DNA of 64,000 nt from Granulicatella elegans ATCC 700633. Its GTDB lineage: Bacteria > Bacillota > Bacilli > Lactobacillales > Aerococcaceae. The position numbers and the translations under genes are program-made. The notes below the pieces were generated by a model. It was not told the origin of the DNA and did no database searches. It saw only the letters and a program-made list of their open reading frames with translations. Of this stretch, positions 6,318 to 63,854 are shown piece after piece. The stretch spans positions 870,901 through 934,900 of the forward strand of contig NZ_KI391971.1 in the NCBI RefSeq assembly GCF_000162475.2, given 5' to 3'. How positions within the stretch are numbered: the first letter of the stretch is position 1; every line of letters starts with the position of its first letter.

Positions 6318-6456
6318 AGACTTTCTTAGTATAGTAGTATTAGGACGCAAGCAGCCAGCTTTGCTGTCTCATTGCTAAACTTTGAGCCTGTAGTCTCAAA
6401 GTTTCCTGAGTGATAAGCCGATTGGCTTATCATGCCCATACAACTATAGAAAGTCT
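6318..6456 (+). repeat. Structured intergenic element, copy A
   Basis: This is a full copy. The outer arms AGACTTTC...TATAGTAG and CAACTATAGAAAGTCT enclose three hairpins. Hairpin 1 has GCAA/TTGC closure around GCAGCC-AGC-ttt-GCT-GTCTCAT. Hairpin 2 is CTTTGAG/CTCAAAG with loop CCTGTAGT. Hairpin 3 is GATAAGCC-gatt-GGCTTATC. An AGG before hairpin 1 can pair with CCT after hairpin 2. It begins two bases after the parC stop codon and is followed by TTTT. Confidence 0.85.
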
Positions 6457-22828: not shown

Positions 22829-22960
22829 ATTGATTGACTGTAGCTAGGTCGCCAGCAGCCTCGCTTTGCGAGTCTCATGGCTAAACTTTGAGCCTTGGTC
22901 TCAAAGTTTCCCTGTAAAAGAATCCTATCTGATTCTTTTACTTTAGCTACTGTATCAATT
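22829..22960 (+). repeat. Structured intergenic element, copy B
   Basis: This is a full copy. The outer arms ATTGATTGACTGTAGCTA and TAGCTACTGTATCAAT enclose three hairpins. Hairpin 1 is GCCA-GCAGC-CTCGC-ttt-GCGAG-TCTCA-TGGC. Hairpin 2 is CTTTGAG/CTCAAAG with CCTTGGT. Hairpin 3 is AAAGAATC-ctatct-GATTCTTT. AGG (22845-22847) and CCCT flank the first two hairpins. It is in sense to rexA, 140 bases after its stop. Apart from this copy, a terminator and a promoter, the gap 22690-23153 shows nothing else. Confidence 0.9.
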
Positions 22961-27631: not shown

Positions 27632-27772
27632 TCAGAATACATTGAAAATACTGTAGACATTGTAGCAAGGTCGCCAGCAGCCAGCTAAAGCTGTCTCATG
27701 GCTAAACTTTGAGCCTAGGTCTCAAAGTTTCCCTGCAATTGCTACTATAGAGTATTTTCTATGTTATTCTGA
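27632..27772 (+). repeat. Structured intergenic element, copy C
   Basis: The outer arms CAGAATACATTGAAAATACT and AGTATTTTCTATGTTATTCTG pair over about 35 bp. Hairpin 1 is GCCA-GCAGCC-AGCT-aa-AGCT-GTCTCA-TGGC and hairpin 2 is CTTTGAG-CCTAGGT-CTCAAAG. Hairpin 3 is reduced to GCAATTGC. Its flanks and arms closely match copy D; the two bracket the acetyltransferase gene as direct repeats. It is antisense to the neighbouring genes, 23 bases from the acetyltransferase stop. Confidence 0.88.
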
Positions 27773-28674: not shown

Positions 28675-28828
28675 GGATTCAGTATACATAGAAAATACTG
28701 TTGATATATCAGCAAGGTTGCTGGCTAAACTTTGAGCCTAGGTATCAAAGTTTCCCTGTAATAAAAATAGCTAACGCTACTTATATTGCTTTTATTACTA
28801 TAGAGTATTTTCTATGTATTCTGAATCC
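28675..28828 (+). repeat. Structured intergenic element, copy D (hairpin 1 deleted)
   Basis: The outer arms GGATTCAGTATACATAGAAA and TTTCTATGTATTCTGAATCC pair over more than 30 bp. Hairpin 1 has collapsed to AGGTTGCTGGCTAAA, losing the GCAGCC/TCTCAT part. Hairpin 2 is CTTTGAG-CCTAGGT-aTCAAAG, with one broken pair. Hairpin 3 is long and imperfect. Arms and 3' flank (CTGAATCCGTACGT) are near-identical to copy C. Confidence 0.85.
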
Positions 28829-28874: not shown

Positions 28875-29041
28875 AAGTGAATGACTAGATTATACCTTCC
28901 TCAGTTGCAAAAAGAATATATATAAATATATATTCCCGCAAAATTCGAGACTACAGGCTCGAATTTTAGCCATGAGACTCGCAAGCGAGGCTGCTGGCGG
29001 CGCTGCAACAACCCAGGGAGGTATAATCTATTCATTCACTT
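28875..29041 (-). repeat. Structured intergenic element, copy E
   Basis: The outer arms match at 20 of 21 positions (AAGTGAATGACTAGATTATA against its complement). On the minus strand, hairpin 1 is GCCA-GCAGC-CTCGC-tt-GCGAG-TCTCA-TGGC. Hairpin 2 is AATTCGAG/CTCGAATT, a compensated change from TTTGAG/CTCAAA. Hairpin 3 is GAATATATAT-tt-ATATATATTC. It is in sense to the ula operon and 57 bases past its last stop, just beyond a normal terminator. The gap 28606-29097 contains copies D and E, that terminator and the start region of the acetyltransferase gene. Confidence 0.9.
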
Positions 29042-35786: not shown

Positions 35787-35931
35787 AAAGCAAGAATCTC
35801 CACTCTTACAGTGAGGACGGCAGCAGCCCCTTCGGGTCTCATGCCTAAAATTTGAGCCTTGGTCTCAAATTTTCCTTTGTAATAATCATGTCTGATTATT
35901 ACTGCCACTGTAGAGTGGAGTTCTTGCTTTT
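35787..35931 (+). repeat. Structured intergenic element, copy F
   Basis: The outer arms AAAAGCAAGAATCTCCACTC and GAGTGGAGTTCTTGCTTTT enclose a second pair CAGTG/CACTG. Hairpin 1 is GGCA-GCAGC-CCC-ttc-GGG-TCTCA-TGCC, hairpin 2 is AATTTGAG-CCTTGGT-CTCAAATT, and hairpin 3 is TAATAATCA-tgtc-TGATTATTA. It is in sense to plsC and ends in a T-run. Arms resemble copy G, its inverted sibling across the toxin-antitoxin pair. Confidence 0.92.
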
Positions 35932-40563: not shown

Positions 40564-40572
40564 GACATAAAG

Positions 40573-40613
40573 AACCCTGCACCCAAAACTCTATACTTTT
40601 GGGTGCAGGGTTT
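40573..40613 (+). terminator. Terminator of hemH
   Basis: A 16-bp perfect stem starting AACCCTGCACCC is followed by TTT. Confidence 0.8.
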
Positions 40614-40631
40614 CATCATTTATATGATTAT

Positions 40632-41388: not shown

Positions 41389-41516
41389 TTTACAACTCCT
41401 TTCAAACACCAAAAAATTAAATAGTAGTTATCTTCTTGCATCATTATAGCATTGAAGGTCTAATTCAGGAAATTTATGAACTTTTTTATATAATTATTTC
41501 TGATTTAACAAAAATA

Positions 41517-41554
41517 CTCGCCTGATTGTATGTATGATGCTACGATTGGGCGAG
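41517..41554 (-). terminator. Probable terminator of the GIY-YIG gene
   Basis: On the minus strand CTCGCC pairs with GGCGAG across a 26-base loop and is followed by TATTTTTGTT. The long loop makes this a moderate call. Confidence 0.5.
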
Positions 41555-41577
41555 GGTGGATATTCTTTGTAGTAATA

Positions 41578-42465
41578 CTAGGATTCTAAATTTTCTAATT
41601 CTTTAAGAGTCATTCCATTTTCATCTCTCCAGTCTACTCTTCCATTTGTTTGCATTCCTAATACAAATGCTGCTGCATAGGACGGACTGTTAAATAATAA
41701 TTTTTTAGTCAATTTTCCATTGAAGATTTCTTTATTTGCTTTACATTTAGTTCTCAGTTCTTTAATTGCTAGTGGTATAGCTTCAGAATCAATTTCTTCA
41801 ATCATACTATCTTTTAAAACAACAAAACCTTCATTAGTTCTAATACAGGATGCTTGAATTAATTTCTGAGATTTTTTACTTTTTCTTGAAAGATAGAATT
41901 TAGCTTTTATTATATCTTCTACAATAATTTTCTCTTTTGAAGTAAGGAATGGAATAAATACTTTATAGCCTAAAACTCCTAATACCATCTTTGAATATTC
42001 AATAAACTCTTCAAGTTCAGATTCTTTTTCTTCTGTAACATTACCAATATTTGGTTCATTTCCATTTCTAACTTTATATCTACCAGTTTCTAATGCGATA
42101 TTCGTAAATCTATTTTCAAGATAACTTATCTCCGTTGGTCCAAAAGAATTATTTTGAGTTGTTAAAATAACTACTTCACTAAAATATTTATTGTCTTTTA
42201 AATGTTCTAACACACGAAACAGAACACCTTCTCCATTTTTTCGAGTAGTTGCTTGTCCAATATAGACTTCATCCTCACCGTTTTCATTCTTATCTATTAG
42301 CAAATAAACGCCACTTTGCTTTAAATCTTGGCGTTCTTTGGATTTTTCTAAATAAAATCGTGGAATTTTATAAGCTAAACCAGTCCAATTAGAAAGTGTA
42401 CATTTAATTCTTCCTGTTACTTCTCCATCAATTAGAAAAAGATTAAAATTCTTCCCTAAGTTCAT
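41578..42465 (-). CDS. GIY-YIG nuclease-like protein with DUF4357 domain
   Basis: The 295-residue protein has a GIY-YIG domain in the middle: GVYLLIDKNENGEDEVYIGQ (about residues 52-71), then the arginine of VLFRVLEHL and a glutamate-containing stretch. The C-terminal 60 residues (LFNSPSYAAAFVLGMQTNGRVDWRDENGMTLKEL) match DUF4357, which often ends restriction-like GIY-YIG proteins. The role could be in defence or DNA processing. The ATG at 42465 is used since the upstream TTG codons overlap the SD. It lies near a PD-(D/E)XK gene in the same orientation. Confidence 0.75.
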   Translation of the reverse strand: MNLGKNFNLFLIDGEVTGRIKCTLSNWTGLAYKIPRFYLEKSKERQDLKQSGVYLLIDKNENGEDEVYIGQATTRKNGEGVLFRVLEHLKDNKYFSEVVILTTQNNSFGPTEISYLENRFTNIALETGRYKVRNGNEPNIGNVTEEKESELEEFIEYSKMVLGVLGYKVFIPFLTSKEKIIVEDIIKAKFYLSRKSKKSQKLIQASCIRTNEGFVVLKDSMIEEIDSEAIPLAIKELRTKCKANKEIFNGKLTKKLLFNSPSYAAAFVLGMQTNGRVDWRDENGMTLKELENLES

Positions 42466-42572
42466 CTTCAACAAGTCCTTTATCGTTTATTTTTTTCCAT
42501 ATCTATTTCCACTAACTTAATAAATATTTCTAACATCTTCGAAAACTTATCATTTTCTACAATAATTTCTTC

Positions 42573-43700
42573 CTACTCTCCAAACGTCAAACCGTTCTTA
42601 ATCTTCTCTTCCGCAATTCTCATTTGCTTTATTAACTCATCAATAATGGCATCATAGCTAAAGTCCTCTATTTTCCAATATTGATAACAATGGCAATATT
42701 TAGCTGTAATATTCCCATACTTACAATAATTGTTTCTCATTTTAGAAGTGCGACCTTGTTTTGAGATTTTTTCTGCAAAATTTCTCTTGAAGTAATCGCA
42801 ATCGTATAGTTTTTCAATCACTACTTTTTCATGATAATTGCCTTCTTGCGAAGCCCCTCCATAAATTCTGAATTGGTCTCCTTCTATCTGTACGCCAATC
42901 ATTCCAATTTCTTTTGTTGGATCTCCATCGATTCTTTGAGAGAACACGATACTGAGGGTTGGTTTCTTATGGTTGAAGCTGAGTCCGCAAACTGGTTTTA
43001 CCCAATCTTTATACGCTTCAAAAGTTAGTCGTTTATTAATTTCTTCCATAAATTCTGACCCTTTTAGTTTTACATAAATATCAGAATAACGGATTTTTTC
43101 TAAGTCTTTATCTCCAATGATATATTTGCCTTTATTTTGCTCCATTTTGCTTTGGAATAAGTCATAGAGTACTTCGATATCTTCCGCATATTGTTGGATA
43201 TAGTCTGCAAAATCCATTGTTGCATGTACTTCTTGGATATTCATGATTCGTTTAGCAATTTCATGGTAACTTAAGAATAACCATTTTCCTAATTCTTGGA
43301 TATCTAGTGATGCATATAATCCTGTCAGAATTCCTGTAATCGATAAGTCTTGTTTTCCTAATTCTTCTTCATATCTCATCAATTGTTCTTTTGTTGGAAT
43401 GGACTTAATTTTATTTTCAATAATCAGTACTTCTGTTTCATTGGCTTTATTTTTATAAGTAATCGTTAAATCCACATGTTTCTTTTCTCGTTCGACTGAG
43501 ATGAATGTACATCCGTTTTGATAAAAATCAGGGATAAATACTTCGATAAATGGATGTTTTCCTTCGACTTCTTGTTCTAGTATCCATGCCCAAAAATTAG
43601 AATGAGATAATTCCTTCCCACTTAAGGAGATGGCAAATAATGGGGAACGATTGAGTCGTTGTAATTGTTCTTCTATGATACTTGTTGTTTTCTTTTTCAT
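42573..43700 (-). CDS. PD-(D/E)XK nuclease superfamily protein
   Basis: The 375-residue protein shows the core nuclease signature VDLTITYKNKANETEVLIIENKIKS, with Asp, Glu and Lys in the D-(15)-ExK pattern (about residues 77-98), followed by TKEQLMRYEEEL, as in the PDDEXK_4-type family. The N-terminal SHSNFWAWILE also fits. The C-terminal half has no recognised domain. Such proteins are common near restriction and defence genes. The neighbouring GIY-YIG gene may belong to the same unit. Confidence 0.75.
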   Translation of the reverse strand: MKKKTTSIIEEQLQRLNRSPLFAISLSGKELSHSNFWAWILEQEVEGKHPFIEVFIPDFYQNGCTFISVEREKKHVDLTITYKNKANETEVLIIENKIKSIPTKEQLMRYEEELGKQDLSITGILTGLYASLDIQELGKWLFLSYHEIAKRIMNIQEVHATMDFADYIQQYAEDIEVLYDLFQSKMEQNKGKYIIGDKDLEKIRYSDIYVKLKGSEFMEEINKRLTFEAYKDWVKPVCGLSFNHKKPTLSIVFSQRIDGDPTKEIGMIGVQIEGDQFRIYGGASQEGNYHEKVVIEKLYDCDYFKRNFAEKISKQGRTSKMRNNYCKYGNITAKYCHCYQYWKIEDFSYDAIIDELIKQMRIAEEKIKNGLTFGE

Positions 43701-43941
43701 GTCATTATCCTTTAACTGTTGTTAGTACCTTAACGTTAACATAGTCAATGTTCAATTTCAATGAATGATGCAAAGACTAGTTGCCAGTAATATTTCTTAT
43801 TTTCACCTTTTTGAGTGATGTCAAAGTATGGTTTATAGTTATTATTCAATTAGTACTACAACTTTCCCAAATTTCTTCTGTGCATCTTCCGACTATTTAC
43901 GATACAATAAACCTGAAAATACGAATAAAGGTAGTGATAAT

Positions 43942-44130
43942 ATGAAAATAGAAGAATTTGATACTGTTCTTTTAAAAGATGGACAAACTGCAGCAATTGT
44001 AGATAAATTAAGCGAAGATACGTTTATAGCTGACATTGGAGACTCTCCTGAAGACTGGGATACGGTTACTATTACAATCGATGAAATTGAAAAAGTAGTT
44101 TATAGAAATGAAAAATCTATTGATAGGTGA
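43942..44130 (+). CDS. DUF4926-like small protein
   Basis: The 62-residue acidic protein begins MKIEEFDTVLLKDGQTAAIVDKL, a beta-rich pattern close to DUF4926. ATG at 43942 is placed after AAAGGTAG; the frame extends upstream with no SD. It overlaps the following CPCC gene by four bases (GTGA), indicating coupling. DUF4926 proteins are often found in toxin or immunity clusters, but nothing here proves that role. The 241-base gap upstream holds no other feature I can support. Confidence 0.6.
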   Translation: MKIEEFDTVLLKDGQTAAIVDKLSEDTFIADIGDSPEDWDTVTITIDEIEKVVYRNEKSIDR

Positions 44131-44348
44131 TATTGATTTTGAATAAGAGTCTAAAAGAGAATTTAATAATCATTAATGGTGACGAATATGTACATTGTCC
44201 AGTATGCGGAACTATTACTGCGGTATATGATATATGTGATACGTGCCAATGGCAGAATACTGGTGAAACAAATATTGATGGAGGTCCTAATATTATGAGT
44301 TTAGCGGAAGCTAAAGAAGCATACGCAAAAGGCTTACCGATAACATAA
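44127..44348 (+). CDS. Cysteine-rich CPCC-domain small protein
   Basis: The 73-residue protein has two CxxC pairs, HCPVCG and CDTCQW, likely a zinc ribbon, followed by GGPNIMSLAEAKEAYAKG. This order matches the Cys-rich CPCC family, seen in polymorphic-toxin immunity neighbourhoods. The GTG start overlaps the previous stop; downstream TTG codons are also possible. No function is established. Confidence 0.7.
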   Translation: MILILNKSLKENLIIINGDEYVHCPVCGTITAVYDICDTCQWQNTGETNIDGGPNIMSLAEAKEAYAKGLPIT

Positions 44349-44380
44349 ACAAGCCCCTAGTTGATTCTAGGAGCTTGTTT
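44348..44380 (+). terminator. Terminator of the DUF4926-CPCC pair
   Basis: AACAAGC-c-CCTAG pairs with CTAGG-a-GCTTGTT and is followed by TTT. Confidence 0.75.
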
Positions 44381-44471
44381 TATATACAATCCATTTTTAT
44401 TTAACAGTATTAACCTTTATTGTTACCAATAGTATTAGTATGATTTATTTTGTTTCATCTTTTCTTTCAAT

Positions 44472-44774
44472 CTAAAATACCCATAAATTAAATATTAAAA
44501 CTAAATGAAGCAGCAATCTAATAATATGATGCGACATATGTACTTTCTTAAGACTTTCCTTTCTATCCACAAAAAACATGAACGAAATCAATAACAACAA
44601 ACAGGAAATTACTACTTTAATAATGATATTCGTATAAAAGAGATGAATCCCTGCAAAGAATGTTAACAATACAACTAGTAGAATTGAAGGAATAGATATT
44701 CCTAACTCATTTTTATAAGCAAAAAATGCTAACATACATAACATTAAACTGTAGACAAAAAGTGTGATGTTCAT
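44472..44774 (-). CDS. Small four-helix membrane protein, unknown
   Basis: The 100-residue product has four hydrophobic segments with short loops (for example YKNELG and VDRKESLKK) and no recognised family. It lies 26 bases after the AbiEii toxin gene in the same orientation and has a GGAGG-type SD (AAGGAGGTAAG), so it is probably expressed, perhaps with the AbiE pair. A link to phage defence is speculation. Confidence 0.5.
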   Translation of the reverse strand: MNITLFVYSLMLCMLAFFAYKNELGISIPSILLVVLLTFFAGIHLFYTNIIIKVVISCLLLLISFMFFVDRKESLKKVHMSHHIIRLLLHLVLIFNLWVF

Positions 44775-44800
44775 AACTACTTACCTCCTTATTTTCTCAA

Positions 44801-45643
44801 TTAATATTTTTCAAGAATAGAACCAATTTCCTCATAGATAGAAATTGTATCATCGAACGAAATCTCATTAGCATATGGATTATTTTGAATATATTTATCC
44901 CACAAATTCTTAAGAGAATTGCTTTGATAAAATAATTTTACTATCTCTTTATATTGTAATACTAAAGAAAAAGAGTTTCTTTGCTGACTAGTCAGTGTTA
45001 TAGCTTCCTTGAGTACATTTCTATCAATCTTACTTTTATAGAGTTTATATAACATATACAAATCATAAAAATCTCTGGCTCTTGTGGTTGTAATATTTCT
45101 ACTTGAAATTGTTTCGAATTTTTCAGCAATAATAGTTTCAATTGTATATGTTAAAATTGAAATACTACCTTCCTCTAAAATTTTCTCATAAGAATATTGT
45201 ATTTCTTTCGGAGTAATAATATCTCCAGTTGTTATATCAATATTTAAATTTGCATTAATTTTTCCGTATCTACATGATATTGTAGCACAAAAATCTTCAT
45301 ACAAATCTTCTTTTCTAATACGTTCTAATTTTATTAAACGATATACAATATCTGCATCAATAGTTATTTCTAGTATTTCGTAAAGAATTTTTGAAATATT
45401 CTCTTCATTTATTGGAAGTCCTCTAATAGTTGTATCCATATCTAGTGTACTTCTCATTTCAACGCCTATTAATGAAGAAATTAACAAACCTCCTTTCAAA
45501 ATAATATGATTCTTGTATTTAGATTTAGAAATTTTCTCAAGTATCCCTTCAAACAGACACATTTGTAGTAAAGAATTTGCATTTACACCAGTTTTCTTAG
45601 TTATATTTCTTATTGCTCCTTTAATTTGTTCTGATGTCTTCAT
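44801..45643 (-). CDS. abiEii: AbiEii-family nucleotidyltransferase toxin
   Basis: AbiEii toxins are nucleotidyltransferases that stop growth, for phage exclusion or plasmid maintenance. The 280-residue protein shows KNHIILKGGLLISSLIG, then the catalytic RSTLDMDTTIRG (the DxD of the polymerase-beta fold), then NLNIDITTGD and ETIIAEKFETISSR...RARDFYDLYML, all standard for the family. The start overlaps the antitoxin stop by four bases (ATGA). With all motifs intact the toxin should be active. Confidence 0.92.
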   Translation of the reverse strand: MKTSEQIKGAIRNITKKTGVNANSLLQMCLFEGILEKISKSKYKNHIILKGGLLISSLIGVEMRSTLDMDTTIRGLPINEENISKILYEILEITIDADIVYRLIKLERIRKEDLYEDFCATISCRYGKINANLNIDITTGDIITPKEIQYSYEKILEEGSISILTYTIETIIAEKFETISSRNITTTRARDFYDLYMLYKLYKSKIDRNVLKEAITLTSQQRNSFSLVLQYKEIVKLFYQSNSLKNLWDKYIQNNPYANEISFDDTISIYEEIGSILEKY

Positions 45644-46239
45644 AACAACACCTCTGTATAAGATCTTAACTCATTTTCCATTCCTAGTTGCATAGCATAA
45701 GTTGATAAACGTAAAATATTTTTATCTTTACTTGAAAAGTAGGTTTTTATGCTTTCAGTAAACACTTGGGTATCCACTCTATCTTTGTCTTTTATAAGAT
45801 CCAATATCGTACGTTCTTTATCATATACTACAATTTCTCTACCAAATGGACTAAGGGAAGTGCTTTTTCCAATTTTATAAAATTCTTTATTAACATACTT
45901 GAATAGTATATTACTTTTTACTGATTTTACACGACTGACATTATCCCCTACGGCTACTGTCATAACATAACTGAATGGCAATCTTGTAGTAAATCCATGT
46001 AAATAAGCTGCGGTTTCATGAGAAAATATTCCTTTCGGAATTCGATGTGTAAAGTATAAATATTCATCAATACTTTCTCCAGGAAGTCCATACAGTCCAT
46101 TAGCAATTTTTTCCAGTTCTTCTTTAATAACCATATTTTTTAATACGTCTTTATGAATACCATACTCAATAACTTGTTTAGTAGTAATGACTCCATTGTT
46201 TTCCTTTATTTTTTCAAGTAATAATTCTTTTTTACTCAT
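45640..46239 (-). CDS. abiEi: AbiEi-family antitoxin
   Basis: The 199-residue protein has an N-terminal winged helix (LLEKIKENNGVITTKQVIEYGIHKDVLKNM) that represses its own promoter, followed by the AbiEi_4-type C-terminal domain with FSHETAAYLHGF and SPFGREIVVYDKERTILDLI. It neutralises AbiEii in a type IV toxin-antitoxin relation, without direct contact. It is transcribed first, as usual. Confidence 0.9.
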   Translation of the reverse strand: MSKKELLLEKIKENNGVITTKQVIEYGIHKDVLKNMVIKEELEKIANGLYGLPGESIDEYLYFTHRIPKGIFSHETAAYLHGFTTRLPFSYVMTVAVGDNVSRVKSVKSNILFKYVNKEFYKIGKSTSLSPFGREIVVYDKERTILDLIKDKDRVDTQVFTESIKTYFSSKDKNILRLSTYAMQLGMENELRSYTEVLL

Positions 46240-46264
46240 ACTAACACCACCTTTTCGTGCTTAA

Positions 46265-46293
46265 AATATAATGTTTTTAAGAACAAAAGTCAA
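46265..46293 (-). promoter_or_regulatory. Promoter of abiEi-abiEii
   Basis: On the minus strand TTGACT and TATATT are 17 bases apart, 26 bases before the start codon. Confidence 0.7.
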
Positions 46294-46333
46294 GAGTTAA
46301 TACTAATAATTTCCTCAAAGAACTTTATAGTGC

Positions 46334-46368
46334 AAACAAGCCCCTAGCACTTACTAGGAGCTTATTGT
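46334..46368 (-). terminator. Terminator of the lipoprotein gene
   Basis: AACAAGC-c-CCTAG pairs with CTAGG-a-GCTT. The sequence is nearly identical to the terminator at 44348, so the two sites flanking the AbiE cluster are long inverted-repeat matches. Confidence 0.6.
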
Positions 46369-46387
46369 TGTCATATTACTATTATTC

Positions 46388-47557
46388 TCATTCAAATTCA
46401 ACATAATGAATTTCTGAATTTTCGTTTCGGAATGTTTCACCTTTTGGAATATCTTTTGTATCTTTCTTGAAGGCTACCCATGCCATTCCTTTTTCTGATA
46501 GGAATATCATGCTTCCATCATAGTCAAATTCATGTTGATGTTGTAAGTTAATCAAACGATAAGGTGTTTTGTATCGTCCTGATTCAGTATCAGTTGCTGA
46601 GAAACTCATGAATCCAAGGTGATTTTGTTGGATAAATCCTCTGCTTGTATATCCATAGACCCAATCATATTTCTTTTCTGCTTGATTGACGTGGTAAATG
46701 GTTCCACTCTTTAAATCTGTGCCTAGTGAAACATATAATTCATGTTGATCCGTAAATAATTGATTCAAATGTTCTGTTGCACTTTGATGAGTCAACGTTA
46801 CTTCTTTCTCTCCACTCTTCATATCGTATTGAACAACTTCTGAATGGTTAGCACTTGCATCATAGCGAATATAATAAAGTTTTCCATTGAATTGAATCGG
46901 TGAAAAAGTATTTTGATCAACGACTTGATCTTTCATCGTTGTTGTTTCCAATTGATGAAGCATATTTAAAGATGTATCTTCTTTACTATCCTTAACAACA
47001 TTAAATACTAATTTCGAATCTTCTGTAAAGAATGCGGTAATGTGTTGAATCAATGGTATCTTTTCATTCTCTTTGACAGTTGTAACTTCACCCGTTGTAC
47101 GATTCAATAAGTAGAAGTTTGCATTTTCTTTTGAGTCTGTATATTCCTCAAAAAATACCCAATTTTTGTCGACTGCTCGAACCCATTGATGGGAAACTGT
47201 TGCATCACTCATTTGATGAACCAATGAATAGGTATTTGTTTTTAAATCAATTTCCAAAATACCAACATGATCCACACTACCATATAATTTTCCATCCTCT
47301 GATAACATTTGCGGAATAAAATCTGGATACTCCTCTGCATAATGAGCAACCATACTCTTGTCCCTAAACGTTTCAATAAATGAAACAGAATTAAACTGAT
47401 TACTTCCTTTTCCTAATTGAAAGTTAGTGTTTTTACTTTGTTCCACCGTTGTAACACTTTCTTGAACCGTCGTTTCTTGAGTATTTTTCTGTTGACCACA
47501 AGAAGCTAAACAAATACTTAACAATACAATACTAACTACTCTATATTTTCCTAACAT
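46388..47557 (-). CDS. Lipoprotein with beta-propeller-like body, unknown
   Basis: The 389-residue product starts with a lipoprotein signal (LGKYRVVSIVLLSICLASC). A Gln/Thr-rich linker and repeated short beta units follow (for example LYGSVDHVGILEIDLKTNTYSLVHQ, FYLLNRTTGEVTTVKENE, LYYIRYDASANHSEVVQYDMKSGE). This spacing of 'YxxDxxTGE'-like units suggests a beta-propeller of the DUF5050 kind. It is anchored outside the membrane; its ligand or role is unknown. The gene is monocistronic with a terminator behind it. Confidence 0.6.
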   Translation of the reverse strand: MLGKYRVVSIVLLSICLASCGQQKNTQETTVQESVTTVEQSKNTNFQLGKGSNQFNSVSFIETFRDKSMVAHYAEEYPDFIPQMLSEDGKLYGSVDHVGILEIDLKTNTYSLVHQMSDATVSHQWVRAVDKNWVFFEEYTDSKENANFYLLNRTTGEVTTVKENEKIPLIQHITAFFTEDSKLVFNVVKDSKEDTSLNMLHQLETTTMKDQVVDQNTFSPIQFNGKLYYIRYDASANHSEVVQYDMKSGEKEVTLTHQSATEHLNQLFTDQHELYVSLGTDLKSGTIYHVNQAEKKYDWVYGYTSRGFIQQNHLGFMSFSATDTESGRYKTPYRLINLQHQHEFDYDGSMIFLSEKGMAWVAFKKDTKDIPKGETFRNENSEIHYVEFE

Positions 47558-47614
47558 AAAGACTCCCCCTATTACTGTTAAATAAATGAATGTAACCCAA
47601 TTCTTCTACCCTCC

Positions 47615-47800
47615 TTAACTTTTTTGATGTCTAATGCCAAAAATAATCGAGATGATGCAAAGAATAACACCTACAACAAACATAGGGAATTCAAACTCCT
47701 TAACTTCTTCTATAAAAGGAATGATATACATACTTAATTCAATACAAATAACACCTACTACAATAGAAATACCGATTAATATTTTTTGCCCTGTTTGCAT
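47615..47800 (-). CDS. Small two-helix membrane protein, unknown
   Basis: The 61-residue product starts MQTGQKILIGISIVVGVICIEL and has two hydrophobic helices with a short charged loop (EEVKEFEF). GGAG six bases before ATG 47800 supports this start; an ATG 12 bases earlier overlaps the SD. I do not recognise a family. Confidence 0.5.
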   Translation of the reverse strand: MQTGQKILIGISIVVGVICIELSMYIIPFIEEVKEFEFPMFVVGVILCIISIIFGIRHQKS

Positions 47801-47879
47801 CATAATCTCCATTCTTCAAATTGTTATCGTTTTCACTTACAGTATACTGCTCATTAAATTAAAAATCAATGTGAAAAAA

Positions 47880-47934
47880 GACTTTTCTCCGTAGTAATTG
47901 AGAATATTGCCCAAAACTATTACGAAGAAAAGTC
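47880..47934. repeat. Arm-only relic of the structured intergenic element
   Basis: GACTTTTCTCCGTAGTA pairs with TATTACGAAGAAAAGTC around a 20-base loop. The arms resemble GACTTCCTATAGTAGTA of copies J, K and L, but the core hairpins are absent. It lies 10 bases after the SdpI-like gene stop (minus strand) and is followed on that strand by a T-run, so it also serves as terminator. Confidence 0.65.
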
Positions 47935-47943
47935 ATTTATCCT

Positions 47944-49865: not shown

Positions 49866-49967
49866 CCCATCAAACTCCTTCCCTAGAACATTTACAGTAT
49901 TAGTATAACATTTTTTTCAACGTTTATCATCTGTAGGAACGTTAATGAATGATGTTACAACACAAAT

Positions 49968-50023
49968 GACTTTTTACCGTAGTATTAGTAATGAGATTCG
50001 CTTTAGCGAAGCTGCTTAAGTCC
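49968..50023 (-). repeat. Structured intergenic element, copy H (remnant)
   Basis: One outer arm (GACTTTTTACCGTAGTATTAG) and hairpin 1 (minus strand AAGCAGC-TTCGC-taaa-GCGAA-TCTCAT) survive. The other arm and hairpins 2 and 3 are lost. It lies about 75 bases from the intact copy I. Confidence 0.6.
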
Positions 50024-50098
50024 TTCTTTTGAAAAAAGCAAGACTATAACATAAAATATATTATTTAAACGAAATTTCATAAATGAATGGAAATAAAA

Positions 50099-50234
50099 AA
50101 ATTTCCATTGTAGCACGAGTAAAAGAAGTCTTTCCAGTCTTCTTTTACTGGAAAAATTGAGACCTTAGGCTCAATTTTTAGGCATGAGATTCGCATTTGC
50201 GAAGCTGCTGCCGTCCATTGCTACAATAGAAAAG
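50099..50234 (-). repeat. Structured intergenic element, copy I
   Basis: The outer arms ATTTCCATTGTAGCA and its complement pair over about 16 bp. On the minus strand, hairpin 1 is GGCA-GCAGC-TTCGC-aaat-GCGAA-TCTCA-TGCC, hairpin 2 is AAATTGAG-CCTAAGGT-CTCAATTT, and hairpin 3 is a perfect 11-bp stem AGTAAAAGAAG/CTTCTTTTACT. It is in sense to lepA, 12 bases after its stop, and a run of seven T follows. Together with copy H it fills the gap 49866-50246. Confidence 0.92.
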
Positions 50235-53519: not shown

Positions 53520-53567
53520 GTTGTTTGGAAGATTATTTTACTTGAAAAAGTACATGATGAATAAAAT

Positions 53568-54662
53568 TTATGTCACTATTTTTTTATTTTTTCCTGTATA
53601 AACACTAATTGTTACCTTCACTCCATCATCTTCATTTTTAATTTCTAATGTTCCATGATGTAATTCTGACACCCTTTTAACAAATGCTAGCCCTATTCCA
53701 AAATGGGCATCATTCAGATTGCGATTTTTATCTTTTCGGTAAAATAATGAATCTGCATGTTGTAATATTTCATCAGTTAAATGCGCACCATTATTCCAAA
53801 TACTAATCACTAACTGCTGATGAGCGTATTGTAAATCAACTTTGATTGCTTTTTTATCTGCTGTGCTATACTCCAGTGCATTTTGCATCATATTCATCAC
53901 TGCTCTTAATACATAATTCAAATGAAGATATACTGTAGTATTTTTATCTAGCTTTTCATCATATTGGAAAGTAACAATTGTTTTGTCTTTTAGCAAATAA
54001 TGGATTTCTTGTTCAATAGATTCGATGACATCTTGTAAGGAATAATCATTCCATTCATTTTCGTTCTCATAAAAAGTTTTCGAATACAATAGTAATCGGT
54101 TAATATATTCAATCATACGATTGCTTGCTATATTGATATCTTGAATATAGGGAAGATATTTTTCTTCAATAGCTGAATGAGATAATAGTTCAGAATTTCC
54201 TTGAATAACTGTTAATGGTGTTTTTAAATCATGGGAAGCTGCTGATACTTTAAACACTAATGCTTCCTTTTGTTGGCGTTCTTTTTCAAGCATCCCTTCG
54301 ATTTTTTGTTGCATTTGATTAATTTTTTGATTCGTTTCTATAAATTCTGTAATCATTAAGGATTCTGTTAAATCACTAGATTCTAACCACATGGATTGAT
54401 GGTAAACAATATTCATCTCTTTATGTATTTTCAATAGTAATTGTCGTATATTAAAACTAACAATCACTAATAAAGCGATACATAAATATATCCAAGAAAA
54501 AATATTCAATAATACAGGATGAGCTGTTTCTTCACCAGCAACTTTAATAGAAATCGACAATAATGGAAGTAGGTACAATACTAAAATAGCAATTACAAAC
54601 TCAACTATAATGGTAAGACATGTCTTTTGAACAAGTTGTTTAAAGCTTATTTTATTTTCCAT
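53568..54662 (-). CDS. Sensor histidine kinase
   Basis: The 364-residue protein has two membrane helices (about residues 15-38 and 50-70) with a very short external loop of about ten residues, so it may sense through the adjacent ABC permeases or within the membrane. The phosphorylated histidine is H144 in SHDLKTPLTVI, followed by an HATPase domain with MMQNALEYS (N box) and FGIGLAFVKR (G box). Its start overlaps the response-regulator stop by 16 bases. It is the last gene of an ABC/two-component operon. Confidence 0.88.
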   Translation of the reverse strand: MENKISFKQLVQKTCLTIIVEFVIAILVLYLLPLLSISIKVAGEETAHPVLLNIFSWIYLCIALLVIVSFNIRQLLLKIHKEMNIVYHQSMWLESSDLTESLMITEFIETNQKINQMQQKIEGMLEKERQQKEALVFKVSAASHDLKTPLTVIQGNSELLSHSAIEEKYLPYIQDINIASNRMIEYINRLLLYSKTFYENENEWNDYSLQDVIESIEQEIHYLLKDKTIVTFQYDEKLDKNTTVYLHLNYVLRAVMNMMQNALEYSTADKKAIKVDLQYAHQQLVISIWNNGAHLTDEILQHADSLFYRKDKNRNLNDAHFGIGLAFVKRVSELHHGTLEIKNEDDGVKVTISVYTGKNKKIVT

Positions 54663-55318
54663 TTATAGCCGCCTCCCCTCATTGTTTCAATCGGATTTAA
54701 GTGGTAAGGTTTAAATTTTGAACGTATTTGATACATATATTCAGAGATGGATCTAAATTGAGTATTAGAACTATTAGGATAGACAACAGTATAAATTTCT
54801 TCAATGGTAAATATTCTTGAAGTTTGACTAGCTAGTAACTGAATAATCATAAATTCCCGGTTCGTTAATTTGATTTCATTTTCCTCAACAAAAACTATTT
54901 TTAAATTCATATCAATTAAAATCGAACCAAATTCTAATCGTTTACCATTTTGTCTATTTCGTTCTTCACGTCTAAGATGCATATTAATTCTTGCTAAAAA
55001 CTCTTTTACTGAGAATGGTTTAGTAATATAGTCATCTGCTCCTGCTAACAATCCATTCACTAAATCTTCCTCCATATCTTTAGCTGTAATAAAAATAATT
55101 GGCGCTTTAATCTGTTCTCTAATTTCATTACAAATCGCTATGCCATCTAGTGGCATCATAATATCTAATAATATTAAATCAAAGTCGACAAAGTCACAGA
55201 TATTTACTTCCTCAATGCCATTTCTAGTAGTAACCTCATAACCATTTAACTGTAATATATTTTTGATTAATCTTAAAATAGTTTCATCATCATCAATGAC
55301 TAAAATTTTATATGACAT
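54647..55318 (-). CDS. OmpR-family response regulator
   Basis: The 223-residue protein has a receiver domain with the phospho-acceptor D52 (LILLDIMMP), acidic pocket IDDDE, and the lysine of YITKPF. The C-terminal winged helix includes LTNREFMIIQLLASQ. It is encoded between the permeases and the kinase. An 11-bp-spaced direct repeat TTCTGAA in front of the operon promoter is its probable binding site. Confidence 0.9.
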   Translation of the reverse strand: MSYKILVIDDDETILRLIKNILQLNGYEVTTRNGIEEVNICDFVDFDLILLDIMMPLDGIAICNEIREQIKAPIIFITAKDMEEDLVNGLLAGADDYITKPFSVKEFLARINMHLRREERNRQNGKRLEFGSILIDMNLKIVFVEENEIKLTNREFMIIQLLASQTSRIFTIEEIYTVVYPNSSNTQFRSISEYMYQIRSKFKPYHLNPIETMRGGGYKWKIK

Positions 55319-55341
55319 ACCCCAACACTCCTATCTTGCTT

Positions 55342-56067
55342 TCATTTTACACTTTTTAGATGCAAATGGTAATAGGCTAATCCAATAAAAACTATTGTCC
55401 ATAATGATTGAATCAAAAGTCCTTCTATAACACTTGGATAGATAGAAATTTCTTTGATTGAAAAACTATTCATAGTCACTAATACAGGAAGTACATTCAT
55501 TAGAGAAGAATATTGTAATAATAATTGCCCTAGTCCTAATAACATGGATAATACAATTGTTAAAGAAGAAACCATCGATTCCATAAGTATCGTTAAGCAG
55601 AATGTAATTATACTAATTTGAAACGTAGCAATTATAGGTGGAATAAGTTTTGACAATAGTAAACTTACAAATTCTGGACTTAATTGAAATTTAAAATAAA
55701 AAGTTACTAATCCAATCCCCACTCCAATGGCTATGCAAAAACAGCATAAAATCGATAACAAAGTTACGATTACCTTGATACAAAAAAATTTCACACGACT
55801 AGGGGTCGATAATAAACTTGTCCTTAAAGAACTTTTAAGAAACTCTCTTCCCCAAAATACCGCAGAAAAAACTGCAAAAACTGTTTGCGATAAATAGATA
55901 CTTTGCAAAAACTGTGTCACTATAAAATCTCGATTAATCATTAGAGAAGAAGGATTTAATGACAGTAACATTGCTAATAGAAATAAAATAGAAAATACTA
56001 ACGTTACCGATAATCCTTTGTAATATATTATTTTCAAAAATTCACTTTTTATCTGATTTCCTAGCAT
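55342..56067 (-). CDS. ABC-2-type permease of a lantibiotic-immunity-like exporter (second)
   Basis: The 241-residue protein has six membrane helices and the N-terminal amphipathic LGNQIKSEFLKIIYYK stretch typical for LanEG/BcrB-type permeases. It begins at the base where the preceding permease gene ends, so translation is coupled. Together with its neighbours it forms a complete exporter, likely protecting the cell against membrane-active peptides or acting as such a sensor. Confidence 0.72.
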   Translation of the reverse strand: MLGNQIKSEFLKIIYYKGLSVTLVFSILFLLAMLLSLNPSSLMINRDFIVTQFLQSIYLSQTVFAVFSAVFWGREFLKSSLRTSLLSTPSRVKFFCIKVIVTLLSILCCFCIAIGVGIGLVTFYFKFQLSPEFVSLLLSKLIPPIIATFQISIITFCLTILMESMVSSLTIVLSMLLGLGQLLLQYSSLMNVLPVLVTMNSFSIKEISIYPSVIEGLLIQSLWTIVFIGLAYYHLHLKSVK

Positions 56068-56840
56068 TAAAAATTCCCTCCTACATCCCTTTTTTCAAAT
56101 TGACAATAAGCGATTATCCCAAAAATGAACACCCAAAGGAACAATAAAGTAGCCGTCCAAAATGGATGAGATGAAAATCTAGTTTCCGATGATGCAATGA
56201 AGCTATTTCCTAAAGCAACTGGAAGAGCCTTTCCCCATTCAAAATGAGTAGAGAGAAACTCCCCAACATTATAAATTTGAGGAATTAAAAATAATAAGCT
56301 AGCAATGGCTGTTCGAAATAGAAAAGCTATAAAGTAAGATAAAATCGTGAGACTTACCCATGCTAGTGTCGCCAATAAAATAAAGTACCAAACTTTAAAA
56401 CTTAATAAAACACTTAGTCCTAAATTTCCTAATGTAAAATGAGCCACTTCAATGGTAACTATAATCGATAGAAATGAAAGGATAGCTGATAAAAGTGTTA
56501 ACGTCATTAATTTAAAAAAGTATAAACTCTTCTTATTACAATTAGTTAATAAGGTAGTTCGCAGTTGATGATTTTTGAATTCACTTCCACCATAAACAGC
56601 ACCCAAAATAATCATTGGCATCATTCCTAACATAACTGTATCAAATCCTAAATATTCAATCGGAGGAATCGCTTCTGCCAAAATAGCTGTATTCTCAGGA
56701 GTAGCCTGTAATCCTATTTCTAAAACTGCTTTTATACCAAGATAGGCAAAAAATGGTTGTACGATAAAAAGGATTAGCAAAACAATTTTGAAAAGTTTGG
56801 AATAAGTAATCTTTAATAATTCACTATAAAATAACTTCAT
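56067..56840 (-). CDS. ABC-2-type permease of a lantibiotic-immunity-like exporter (first)
   Basis: The 257-residue protein has six membrane helices, with YSELLKITYSKLFKI at the N-terminus and GGSEFKNHQLRTTLLT in the cytosolic loop, both shared by LanE/G permeases. It overlaps the ATPase gene by 17 bases. Two non-identical permeases of about 240-260 residues, one ATPase and one two-component system is the arrangement of antimicrobial-peptide resistance modules in Firmicutes. Confidence 0.75.
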   Translation of the reverse strand: MKLFYSELLKITYSKLFKIVLLILFIVQPFFAYLGIKAVLEIGLQATPENTAILAEAIPPIEYLGFDTVMLGMMPMIILGAVYGGSEFKNHQLRTTLLTNCNKKSLYFFKLMTLTLLSAILSFLSIIVTIEVAHFTLGNLGLSVLLSFKVWYFILLATLAWVSLTILSYFIAFLFRTAIASLLFLIPQIYNVGEFLSTHFEWGKALPVALGNSFIASSETRFSSHPFWTATLLFLWVFIFGIIAYCQFEKRDVGGNF

Positions 56841-57555
56841 CTTCTTTTCCTCCTTCTTGAATAAGGTTGAAAAAGACTTCTTCTAGATTTACCGTATCCT
56901 TCATAATTTTCTTTAATTCTCCGTTTGCAATAATTTTTCCTTTATGAATGAATACTACATCATCCGTAACAGCTTCTACCTCTGACAAAATATGGGAAGA
57001 TAATAAGATAGTCTTCCCTTTTTCAGATTGTTCTTTTAAGAAATTTCTTAGCCAACGAATACCGCTAGGATCTAATCCATTTGTCGGTTCATCCAATATA
57101 AGAAATTGTGGATTTCCAAGTAATGCAGTTGCAAGACTAACCCTTTGTGTCTCGCCAAGAGATAAATGTCCAATGGATTCATTCTTTTTATGGACAATAT
57201 CCGTTACTACTAATACTTCATCAATTCTACTTTTTTTAATTCCATTAGAGGCTGCTACAATTCTTAAATGTTGATATACCGTTCGATCACTTGGTGACCC
57301 TAGTCCATCAAAAGTTGCTCCTACAACAAATAAAGGATTACGGATATCTTTATAATTTATTCCTGCAATTGTTGCGCTACCCGAAGTTGCTTGATCTAAT
57401 CCTAATAATATTCTTAAGGTAGAACTTTTACCTGCTCCATTTGGACCTAAGAATGCAGTCACTCTCCCTTCCTTTGCTACAAAATTTATATCGTCTAATA
57501 TGGTAATATTTCCATATACTTTACACAAATTCTTAATTTCAATATTTTTTTCCAT
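56824..57555 (-). CDS. ABC transporter ATPase, BcrA/LanF type
   Basis: The 243-residue ATPase has Walker A FLGPNGAGKSST (about residue 34), Walker B FLILDEPTNGLDP, and the H-loop SSHILSEVE. The signature is LSLGETQRVSLA rather than LSGGQ, which is the pattern of the BcrA/LanF branch. ATG at 57555 follows AGGAG at seven bases; the open frame continues 126 bases upstream through the promoter and the repeat element J, so a longer product is rejected. It is the first gene of the operon. Confidence 0.88.
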   Translation of the reverse strand: MEKNIEIKNLCKVYGNITILDDINFVAKEGRVTAFLGPNGAGKSSTLRILLGLDQATSGSATIAGINYKDIRNPLFVVGATFDGLGSPSDRTVYQHLRIVAASNGIKKSRIDEVLVVTDIVHKKNESIGHLSLGETQRVSLATALLGNPQFLILDEPTNGLDPSGIRWLRNFLKEQSEKGKTILLSSHILSEVEAVTDDVVFIHKGKIIANGELKKIMKDTVNLEEVFFNLIQEGGKEDEVIL

Positions 57556-57584
57556 AAAATCACTCCTCATACTCTTTATAAATT

Positions 57585-57619
57585 CATTGTAGAGTACCCT
57601 CTTCAGAATAATTTCAGAA
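57585..57619 (-). promoter_or_regulatory. Promoter of the ABC/two-component operon with regulator box
   Basis: On the minus strand two TTCTGAA units are spaced 11 bp apart (57613-57619 and 57602-57608), followed after 11 bases by TACAAT. There is no good -35 hexamer. This is the layout expected for a promoter that an OmpR-family regulator activates by binding in the -35 region. Confidence 0.6.
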
Positions 57620-57653
57620 AAAGAATGAAAAATAAAATTTATACAAAAAAAAA

Positions 57654-57727
57654 GACTTCCTATAGTAGTATGCTCAGGCATGAAACCACAGCGCTGCTGC
57701 CGTCCTTTACTACTATGTTAGGAAGTC
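57654..57727 (-). repeat. Structured intergenic element, copy J (short)
   Basis: The outer arms GACTTCCTATAGTAGTA and TACTACTATGTTAGGAAGTC are intact. Only hairpin 1 remains inside (minus strand GGCA-GCAGC-gctgtgg-TTTCA-TGCC). Hairpins 2 and 3 are deleted. It lies 13 bases after the lipoprotein stop, in sense, and nine T follow on that strand. Confidence 0.88.
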
Positions 57728-57740
57728 ATTCAAAAATATC

Positions 57741-58331
57741 TTATAATTCGTTTGGATCAAAAGTATAAACTACGTTATTCAAATTTCCATATAGCTTTGT
57801 TGAATCATACTTCACAGATTCAATACGCAATCCTTCTTTGCTTTTTGTAAAACGATAGCACCCATGTTTCATCGGAAATCTCTTAGGGAAATATTTTGCT
57901 TGCCTAAATGATGTAGCAAACTTATCATCATTAACATCGTATTTACTCAAACCAATATAAGCATAAGGTTCATCCTCTACATAAATCGTAAATTCAAAAT
58001 TTTTTCTATTATCCATTTCCTCTGACTTATAAAGAGAATATGGTTCACGTATCGTTATCGTCTTACCAACTAATTGTTCTTTTTCATCTTTGGGATAGTC
58101 TACTAAAAATACTTGCTTAGCTCTTTCTAAATAAGTTATATCTATTTCTCCATCGTGTTCAAGTAATAATTCATCGCTTTCATCATTCTCAGAATCAACT
58201 TTTAGGTCTACTTCAGGAGGTAAAGAATATTTTTTCCCTATTGGATGACTGTTGAAACAACTTGATAACAGAGTAACCGAACAGACAAGTAATGCTAATA
58301 AACTATATTTTACATTTTTAAACCATTTCAT
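57741..58331 (-). CDS. Lipoprotein, unknown
   Basis: The 196-residue product starts MKWFKNVKYSLLALLVCSVTLLSSC, a lipoprotein signal. The mature part is very acidic around residues 45-65 (SENDESDELLLEHDGEID), followed by a probable beta domain. No family is recognised. ATG at 58331 has GGGGGAG upstream. It lies upstream of the ABC/two-component operon in the same orientation but has its own repeat/terminator after it. Sibling repeats J and K sit on both sides. Confidence 0.55.
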   Translation of the reverse strand: MKWFKNVKYSLLALLVCSVTLLSSCFNSHPIGKKYSLPPEVDLKVDSENDESDELLLEHDGEIDITYLERAKQVFLVDYPKDEKEQLVGKTITIREPYSLYKSEEMDNRKNFEFTIYVEDEPYAYIGLSKYDVNDDKFATSFRQAKYFPKRFPMKHGCYRFTKSKEGLRIESVKYDSTKLYGNLNNVVYTFDPNEL

Positions 58332-58474
58332 TGTTAAACTCCCCCTAATCATTATCTAGTTTCGTAATTCTTAAAATATGAAAACGCTACCCGCCTTCTA
58401 ATTACAATTATATGGATTTATTAAGGAAATACAATATATTTGTGAAAAAAATCATAAAATGAACAAAAAAAGAA

Positions 58475-58613
58475 GACTTCCTATAGTAGTATGGGTAAGA
58501 TAAGCCAAATAGGCTTATCTTACAGGAAACTTTGAGACCTTAGGCTCAAAGTTTAGGCATGAGACTCGTTCCACGAGGCTACTGCCTTCCTAATACTACT
58601 ATGACAGGAAGTC
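58475..58613 (-). repeat. Structured intergenic element, copy K
   Basis: The outer arms GACTTCCTATAGTAGTAT and ATACTACTATGACAGGAAGTC enclose three hairpins. On the minus strand, hairpin 1 is GGCA-GTAGC-CTCG-tggaa-CGAG-TCTCA-TGCC, hairpin 2 is CTTTGAG-CCTAAGGT-CTCAAAG, and hairpin 3 is GTAAGATAAGCC/GGCTTATCTTAC (12 bp, perfect). Seven T follow. It shares arms with J and L. Confidence 0.92.
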
Positions 58614-58659
58614 ATTCGAACTATATTTACGGACTCTCATATGGTACGTAAAAAAAGAT

Positions 58660-58791
58660 GACTTCCTATAGTAGTAAGCGTAACAGTAGCCAATTGGCTA
58701 CTGTTACTAGGAAAACTTGAGACCTAGGCTCAAGTTTTAGGCATGAGACCGAAGGGCTGCTGCCGTCCTTTACTACTATAATTAGGAAGTC
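58660..58791 (-). repeat. Structured intergenic element, copy L
   Basis: The outer arms GACTTCCTATAGTAGTA and TACTACTATAATTAGGAAGTC enclose three hairpins. On the minus strand, hairpin 1 is GGCA-GCAGC-CC-ttc-GG-TCTCA-TGCC, hairpin 2 is ACTTGAG-CCTAGGT-CTCAAGT, and hairpin 3 is GTAACAGTAGCC/GGCTACTGTTAC (12 bp, perfect). It is in sense to dnaJ, 18 bases after its stop, and seven T follow. Copy K follows after 46 bases as a tandem direct copy. Confidence 0.93.
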
Positions 58792-58809
58792 ATTCAAAAA
58801 TTTATTGTA

Positions 58810-59982
58810 TTATTTAAAACTGTCCTTAAAAGCATCCTTCATTTTATTGAAGAAATTGCCTTCGCCCTCAACATGAGTACCCGCTTCTTTAGCGAAAATC
58901 TGCATCGCTTCACGTTGTTTATCCGTTAAATGCTTAGGCGTTACAACACGTACTGTAACATGCTGATCACCCATTCCACTACCACGAAGTCTAGGCGCAC
59001 CTTTTCCTCTTAAACGAAGAACCGTACCAGATTGAGTTCCCGCAGGAACTTTTAATTTCACTTTGCCGTGAACAGTCGGAACATCCACTTCATCTCCTAA
59101 TGCAGCTTGAGCAAAGTTGATTGGAAGTTCATAGAAAATATCTGCTCCTTCACGTTCAAACGTATCGCTCTTACCAACACGGAAAATCACATATAAGTCA
59201 CCATAAGGGCCGCCATTTTCTCCAGCTTCCCCTTGTCCACGTAATGGCATTTGATTTCCATTTTCTACACCGGCTGGGACTTTTACTTTCACTTTATGCG
59301 TTTCTTCTACATGTTTGTGCCCATGACAAGTCTCACATTTTTCTTTGATTTCTTGTCCAGTACCACCACAGACATCACACGTTGTTTGAGACATCATTCT
59401 ACCAAATGGTGTTGCTCTTTCAACATTGATCACACCTGAACCATGACATTTAGAACATGTCACAGGATCTGTACCAGGTTTTGCACCAGTACCATGACAA
59501 GTTTCACATTCTGCATTACGATGGTAATGAATCACTTCTTCTTTACCAAAAATCGCTTCTTCAAATGTTAAGTCCATGACATATTGTAAATCTGCCCCTT
59601 GACGTGGCATATTGGCACGATTTCCACGACGACCACCGCCGCCACCAAAGAATGTATCGAAAATATCTTCGAATCCACCTGTATAACTTCCAGAGAATCC
59701 TTGACCTCCGAAACCACCAAAGCCACCAAAACCACCCCCAGAAAATCCTGAGTTTGGATCGTATGAAGCGTGACCATATTGATCATACGCAGCACGTTTT
59801 TGACTATCACTTAAAATTTCATAAGCTTCTGCTATTTCTTTAAATTTTTCTTCCGCTCCAGCTTCTTTATTAATATCTGGATGGTATTGTTTGGATAATT
59901 TACGATAAGCTCGTTTAATATCTGTATCGGAGGCATCTTTGGAGACTCCGAGTACTTCATATAAATCACGTTTTGCCACCAT
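58810..59982 (-). CDS. dnaJ: Chaperone protein DnaJ
   Basis: DnaJ delivers unfolded proteins to DnaK and stimulates its ATPase. The 390 residues show the J domain with YHPDIN, a Gly/Phe-rich linker (about 80-115), and four zinc-binding CxxCxG repeats ([32 protein letters not shown]), then the C-terminal substrate-binding domains. It is last in the hrcA-grpE-dnaK-dnaJ operon. In many Lactobacillales lepA follows closely; here the two are about 6.7 kb apart. Confidence 0.97.
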
Positions 59983-63738: not shown

Positions 63739-63854
63739 TAGACTGTACTATGTAGTAGCAAGGTCGCAAGCAGCCAGCTAACGCTGTCTCATTGCTAAAA
63801 ATTAAGACTGTAGTCTTAATTTTTCCCTGTAGTTTGCTACTACATAGCAGTCTA
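63739..63854 (+). repeat. Structured intergenic element, copy M
   Basis: The outer arms TAGACTGTACTATGTAGTAG and CTACTACATAGCAGTCTA pair nearly fully. Hairpin 1 is GCAA-GCAGCC-AGC-taac-GCT-GTCTCA-TTGC. Hairpin 2 is AATTAAGAC-tgta-GTCTTAATT, a clear compensated change from the usual CTTTGAG/CTCAAAG. Hairpin 3 is absent. It lies 17 bases from the murI stop, antisense to murI. Confidence 0.9.

Follow-up and report, generated by a model that had tools for sequence, protein, structure and literature searches.

REP/BIME palindromes with RAYT lie in many copies behind genes, carry hairpins that conserve mismatches, and have a GTAG beside the hairpin. The BOX elements of Streptococcus pneumoniae (boxA, boxB, and boxC) are dispersed and intergenic, with outer inverted repeats closing several hairpins, variable modules, and an enrichment between convergent genes; the same source also names the BOX-type families RepSU1 and boxE/F of S. 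suis and describes SPRITE, a less tightly folded, terminator-like pneumococcal repeat behind genes that is built from a duplex of 18 bp with a U-rich tract (PMC3049150). A further point of comparison is SSRC8_2 (S. pyogenes sRNA 8), presented in PMC3675131 as a small RNA family detected by Northern blot.

In a window of 64,000 nucleotides from Granulicatella elegans (the window being the whole stretch of DNA that was analyzed), we find a dispersed, non-coding element of about 120–180 bp, in which an outer stem, P1, encloses hairpin 3, a short extra stem around hairpins 1 and 2 (P1b, GGA/TCC), hairpin 2, and hairpin 1 (ten aligned window copies; Table 1). Eight of these ten copies have all three hairpins, and C and M are without hairpin 3. 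The sequence of P1 varies from copy to copy; P1b has no two-sided changes in the ten-copy alignment, is paired in nine of ten copies at each of its two pairs, and by eye could take the alternative forms CGC/GCG in copy E and TGGA/TCCA in copy H. Neither P1 nor P1b figures in the sequence-only reading of these copies. Comparison with the corresponding sites of a sister genome (G001, of the same genus, with 88–96% DNA identity to G. elegans over long alignments) shows hairpins 2 and 3 to be optional modules of a composite element. A covariance model of the element, R1, matches the ten window copies at 86–109 bits, plus weaker remnants. The sequence-only reading had placed two copies, K and L, at 58475–58791, and both are confirmed, each with P1 arms and three hairpins between them; the sequence likewise bears out the hairpin 1 closing stems that it listed (GGCA/TGCC, GCCA/TGGC, and GCAA/TTGC), its alternative inner stems for the tip of hairpin 1, and its five versions of hairpin 2. 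A further module, ACGTACYCTCATA...TACGTNAAAA, capable of forming a small hairpin, recurs 5' of the outer stem in many copies (by eye; for example, window 58624–58650).

Table 1. Copies of the element in the window, with the parts of copies K and L (CM, covariance model).
Feature	Position	Strand	Remarks
Copy A	6329..6449	-	CM match; behind + strand ORF ending at 6316
Copy B	22835..22955	-	CM match; behind + strand ORF ending at 22689
Copy C, without hairpin 3	27657..27750	-	CM match
Copy D, damaged	28704..28797	-	CM match, 37.7 bits
Copy E	28899..29014	+	CM match
Copy F	35806..35913	-	CM match
Copy G, close copy of F including outer stem, missing in sister genome	36718..36828	+	CM match
Remnant copy beside H	49912..50037	+	CM match, 21.6 bits
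Copy H	50105..50229	+	CM match
Copy J, short form of outer stem and hairpin 1 only	57661..57717	+	CM 15.4 bits
Copy K, full element	58475..58613	+ (hairpin 3 first on this strand)	CM match 58481-58604, 108.7 bits
K outer stem P1, 5' arm	58475..58491	+	
K hairpin 3, perfect 12 bp	58495..58523	+	
K hairpin 2, with conserved A.G mismatch	58527..58554	+	
K hairpin 1, with conserved 2x2 internal loop UG/RC	58556..58586	+	
K outer stem P1, 3' arm	58594..58613	+	
Copy L, full element	58660..58791	+	CM match 58666-58781, 100.1 bits
L outer stem P1, 5' arm	58660..58676	+	
L hairpin 3	58680..58707	+	
L hairpin 2	58712..58738	+	
L hairpin 1	58740..58764	+	
L outer stem P1, 3' arm	58771..58791	+	
Copy M, without hairpin 3	63750..63845	-	CM match

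Like BOX, the element is composite and modular with an outer stem around hairpins, and two of four folded BOX loci show a closing outer stem. Unlike BOX, it has another sequence: R1 was silent at nine of ten loci found with a BOX pattern (up to two mismatches allowed), and at the tenth it gave a partial match (E 0.0015) ending about 225 nt from the pattern. This comparison of R1 with the ten loci found neither homology to BOX nor the boxA or boxC sequence modules. The element resembles REP/BIME in its many copies behind genes, its hairpins with conserved mismatches, and a GTAG beside the hairpin, but it is larger and composite, and the sister genome, with its 53 element matches, shows no match to the Y1 transposase family. 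Part of the SSRC8_2 model (RF02616; at most positions 137–243 of 281) matches the element, chiefly hairpins 2 and 1, but the scores are 30.6–45.8 bits against a gathering score of 72, and the rest of the RNA is unmatched. SPRITE is likewise a terminator-like repeat behind genes and differs, by its description in PMC3049150, in its duplex and tract and in being less tightly folded.

Covariation usually counts as proof that an RNA is functional, and the sequence-only reading had taken double changes among the copies as a sign of RNA structure, hard to account for by chance or by simple duplication of a terminator. We measured covariation in the ten aligned copies, with C and M aligned without hairpin 3 and with the damaged or short copies (D, J, and the remnant at 49912–50037) left out. 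Standard pairs fill 92.5% of 402 cells (shuffled mean 77.7), two-sided changes occur at 22 of 44 pairs (shuffled 13.3), and the covariation score is 0.332 (shuffled 0.128), each of these values being reached by 0 of 500 shuffles. When the partner is slid by 1–3 columns, pairing falls to 30.5–46.3%, a control that favors a structure derived from the same sequences. The double changes in the hairpin stems are real: they far exceed what chance gives, and mere duplication of a terminator does not account for them. The further step, from these changes to selection of the structure as RNA, is not supported; an RNA reading is possible but is not the best one, with a G.U excess in Streptococcus and a slightly better fold of one strand for it and, against it, the equal numbers of G.U and A.C pairs in G. 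elegans, the exchanged hairpin tips, and the flipped Streptococcus loops that are described below. We favor, with some hesitation, a three-hairpin repeat of the BOX/REP sort, found mostly right behind genes, in which the arms are largely matched at the DNA level, the mismatches are selected, and many copies may have a role at 3' ends.

The alternative that survives best, unlikely but to be weighed seriously, is a structured RNA (a 3' UTR motif or a small RNA) whose fold is selected on the transcript, the double changes being classical compensatory substitutions. The strong covariation in the ten window copies speaks for it, as does the weak match to SSRC8_2 (E 5e-7 to 8e-12, below gathering). 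In RNA stems, G.U substitutes for Watson-Crick pairs and A.C does not. Hairpins 1–3 of the G. elegans copies have 27 G.U and 27 A.C among 3314 cells, which argues that pairing is kept about equally well on either strand and counts against RNA. The Streptococcus copies have 25 G.U and 9 A.C among 2711 cells (94 distinct rows, 13 of 107 having been removed as identical, from a comparison built on 100 sources, a subset of loci), an excess that RNA selection would give. As RNA controls, T-boxes from seven of these genomes have 28 G.U and 0 A.C among 299 cells (23 of 30 loci, 7 being left out), and six tRNAs have 12 and 0 among 134 cells, where the tRNA finder itself favors such pairs. Three random sets of 23 elements given the T-box treatment, on the strand on which the sequence-only reading described the element (hereafter the described strand), gave G.U:A.C ratios of 16:10, 13:11, and 19:11. 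Wobble cells make up 0.8–0.9% in hairpins 1–3, against about 9% in the T-box and tRNA cells. In predicted folds, G.U accounts for 15.6% in T-boxes, for 2.1% and 3.0% on the two strands of the element, and for 4.7% in its outer stem. If P1 and P1b are included, the G. elegans counts become 59 G.U and 91 A.C, 36 of the A.C falling in the outermost, poorly aligned pair. The described strand folds slightly better, at lower energy than its complement in 87 of 119 copies (these and the flank counts use 119 of 120 copies, one being without full flank), which is a point for RNA, but the strand means differ little (-48.0 and -46.3).

Several unpaired bases are near-invariant in the copies of both G. 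elegans and Streptococcus, which again fits a structured RNA. The A.G mismatch of hairpin 2 is present in 114 of 119 G. elegans and 92 of 94 Streptococcus copies, the U.C of hairpin 1 in 102 of 116 and 92 of 94, and the G.R of hairpin 1 in 114 of 116 and 93 of 93. These conserved mismatches suggest that something reads the element strand-specifically. Also on the side of RNA, two orthologous Streptococcus sites have a smaller share of variable columns in the core than in the left flank: the first (12 genomes) varies at 13 of 93 core columns, 33 of 77 left-flank columns, 12 of 43 right-flank columns, and 13 of 80 columns of neighboring coding sequence, and for the second (9 genomes) the corresponding counts are 13 of 95, 52 of 92, 11 of 42, and 23 of 100. 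Judging by names read from gene ends, the first site presumably precedes yhbY and the second adjoins lpd.

Across six orthologous pairs between G. elegans and its sister, folded with their flanks, there are 10 two-sided Watson-Crick changes, fewer than the one-sided changes to G.U (11), A.C (5), and other combinations (18), which counts against arm copying; in 10 more cells both sides changed but Watson-Crick pairing is missing from one or both of the copies, partly because tips are misaligned. In three of the six pairs (A, B, and the copy at 949750), the whole tip of hairpin 1 has been exchanged, with both arms changed in length, and in the copy at 949750 five pairs of hairpin 3 have also changed on both sides, with the loop of that hairpin and the adjoining part of the outer stem left as they were. 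In Streptococcus, the same arms carry a loop and its reverse complement (TTC/GAA, GTA/TAC, AATACA/TGTATT, and TAAC/GTTA). Counting all copies, identical rows retained, hairpin 3 loops occur in both orientations in 24 of 74 (reverse control 0, complement 2, shuffled mean 4.0, maximum 19) and hairpin 1 loops in 62 of 87 (reverse 11, complement 12, shuffled mean 22.4), the best shuffle of hairpin 1 equaling the observed 62. Two-orientation loops were not seen in G. elegans, where the counts are 0 of 55 for hairpin 3 and 27 of 82 for hairpin 1 against 22.2 in shuffles. Swapped tips and flipped loops count against selection of the fold as RNA. Among the closest Streptococcus copies (at most 4 differences; 48 copies, mutual neighbors counted twice), the changes are G.T 13, A.C 8, other 18, and two-sided 0; being one-sided only, they give no sign there of fast arm repair.

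Template switching is predicted, and in PMC8794818 reported, to give parallel two-sided changes and loop inversions in ribosomal RNA genes, and the exchanged tips and flipped Streptococcus loops could come from single template-switch events in DNA (PMC8794818). In the reading that we favor, the paired changes would arise largely at the DNA level, template switching during replication copying one hairpin arm onto its partner, so that stems would stay Watson-Crick perfect and loops would be able to flip. Arm copying alone would erase internal mismatches, and their persistence counts against pure arm copying; the mismatches are therefore probably selected, for movement or for use. Selection on mismatches and linkers might act through recognition of the folded single strand by a protein, or through use by the host.

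A related proposal, which we regard as rather unlikely, makes the element mobile DNA: its folded single strand, with the A.G and UG/RC mismatches, would be recognized by an enzyme other than Y1, template switching would keep the arms perfect, long and short forms and changing outer stems would be products of the cycle, and streptococci would use some copies in operons. 

Six sites with a long form in G. elegans hold, by eye, a short form of P1 and hairpin 1 in the sister genome (beside what we take to be dnaJ, and at 839725/844282, 851610, 869302, 934650, and 940817). Copy G carries the outer stem of F, so that stem and element appear to move together. For this reason, and for want of a clean case, we gave up the idea that the element simply inserts into the loop of a terminator. 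A Y1 transposase was likewise rejected as the mobilizer, its presence (19 of 41 genomes) not tracking the elements: it is present in G. elegans (G000), G014, and G035 and absent from G001 and G027, and one of its two matches in G. elegans is a fragment with stops.

Movement as a MITE, by a putative DDE transposase binding the outer stem as terminal inverted repeats, seems quite improbable. It would account for the outer inverted repeat, the many copies, the presence of copy G here and its lack in the sister, and the three larger presence/absence segments (about 1.3, 4.6, and 5.2 kb) that elements border. Such a transposase should need a constant outer stem, however, and outer stems differ strongly between copies, without the constant terminal inverted repeats of a MITE; at the one empty site available, that of copy G, the ends are ambiguous and no clear target-site duplication is seen. 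Elements as the only breakpoints were also rejected, the longest window stretch unaligned with G001 (about 40565–47943) holding no element. The sister genome lacks window segment 27657–28828, in which a gene of the aminoglycoside 3-N-acetyltransferase family (PF02522) is flanked by copies C and D, and at the corresponding place it also lacks the cluster at 53567–58795, which comprises histidine kinase, response regulator, and ABC transporter genes and adjoins copies J, K, and L.

The position of the copies relative to genes (ORFs of at least 70 aa, called mechanically) is uneven. With neighbors read in the orientation of the element, 55 copies have the arrangement -/-, 39 +/-, 20 +/+, and 6 -/+ (n = 120), divergent neighbors thus flanking 6 of 120, and 16 of 120 overlap a mechanical ORF. 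Gene ends face the 3' (reverse-complement) side of the element in 94 of 120 cases (median 25 nt, 76 within 100 nt) and the other side in 59 (median 152 nt, 24 within 100 nt). In Streptococcus the counts are +/- 30, -/- 20, +/+ 8, and -/+ 1 (n = 59, with 12 matches near locus ends and repeated ones left out). In the window, the ORF ending before copy B is presumably rpoC. Many copies may lie in mRNA 3' ends as the reverse complement of the described strand, which is the weakest step of the explanation that we favor, and there the outer stem may contribute to termination or to protection of the mRNA. The 10 nt after the stem contain at least 6 T in 37 of 112 copies when the reverse-complement strand is read and in 12 of 112 when the described strand is read (112 of 119 copies; no outer stem was found in 7), but in only 15 of the 63 copies that have a gene end no more than 60 nt away on the reverse-complement side, which weakens this step. 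The mean number of T per 10 nt is 4.2 on the reverse-complement strand and 3.1 on the other, against a background of 3.4, and only 3.7 for the copies with a gene end that close. A count of longest runs gave an A-run of at least 5 at the left in 77 of 119 copies and a T-run at the right in 48 of 119; the stem-bound count is weaker and was used instead. Use as a terminator is plausible for some copies and unproved for most. That the elements are ordinary intrinsic terminators, long by chance, is very improbable: they do sit directly behind stop codons, and at the site of L and K, behind what is presumably dnaJ, the five congeners G002–G006 show a plain hairpin and a T-rich tract (G001 a short form; by eye), but the inner hairpins with conserved mismatches are common to Streptococcus, and T-rich tracts are as scarce as just given, above all nearest genes.

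At least 120 distinct copies, 60 per strand, are present in the 1.74 Mb G. elegans genome; 16 of 136 matches were removed as overlaps or second-strand matches, and, with the best 150 of 2283 candidates scored, there were 127 covariance-model matches, 120 being a lower bound. An independent hairpin 1 pattern finds 49 places in G. elegans, 34 in G001, one (unlike) in G006, none in the five other genomes scanned, and 0 in the reversed control. Of 41 genomes (its own and 40 relatives), five matched: G. elegans, G001 (53 matches), G027 and G035 (one genus of another family), and, weakly, G014 of the same family (five matches, best E 4.4e-4). Matches were found in 65 of 395 genomes across the order, in 2 of 80 genera, and in 16 of 299 across the class, in 2 of 119 genera; these three surveys scored 88, 9, and 12 candidates per genome, respectively, under stricter filters, and their absences are not proof. 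The copies of G027 resemble those at named S. parasanguinis loci, and a pattern scan of named genomes found at least 80 places, all Streptococcus among the matches listed, with a pattern fitted to such copies; these matches include S. parasanguinis, S. australis, S. sanguinis, S. rubneri, S. xiaochunlingii, and S. thoraltensis. No phage or plasmid record matched window 58450–58810, no Rfam family reached its gathering score in the window or six Streptococcus loci, and no description of the repeat family was found in the open-licence papers searched, including the accessible text of PMC3675131, PMC3049150, and PMC2267715. The element appears to define a new family of BOX/REP-like interspersed repeats, apparently unnamed, that is also present in many Streptococcus genomes; RepSU1 and boxE/F of S. 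suis may be the same. With strong covariation and hardly any wobble pairs in at least 120 copies, a sister genome, and streptococci, the family makes it directly testable whether arm copying at the DNA level can imitate RNA selection.

Three further observations concern individual sets of loci. Three matches retrieved from G014 are 87 nt long with an identical score (L034, L038, and L042, 1501–1587) and may belong to another repeat. In 12 Streptococcus genomes, a strongly conserved copy that precedes the presumed yhbY has the same orientation as the genes on either side of it (L229–L246, about 1501–1618). A BOX hairpin is also altered on both arms, as AAAAC/GTTTT and AAAGC/GCTTT (L283 and L290–L292; by eye), and BOX may behave alike in two-sided change.
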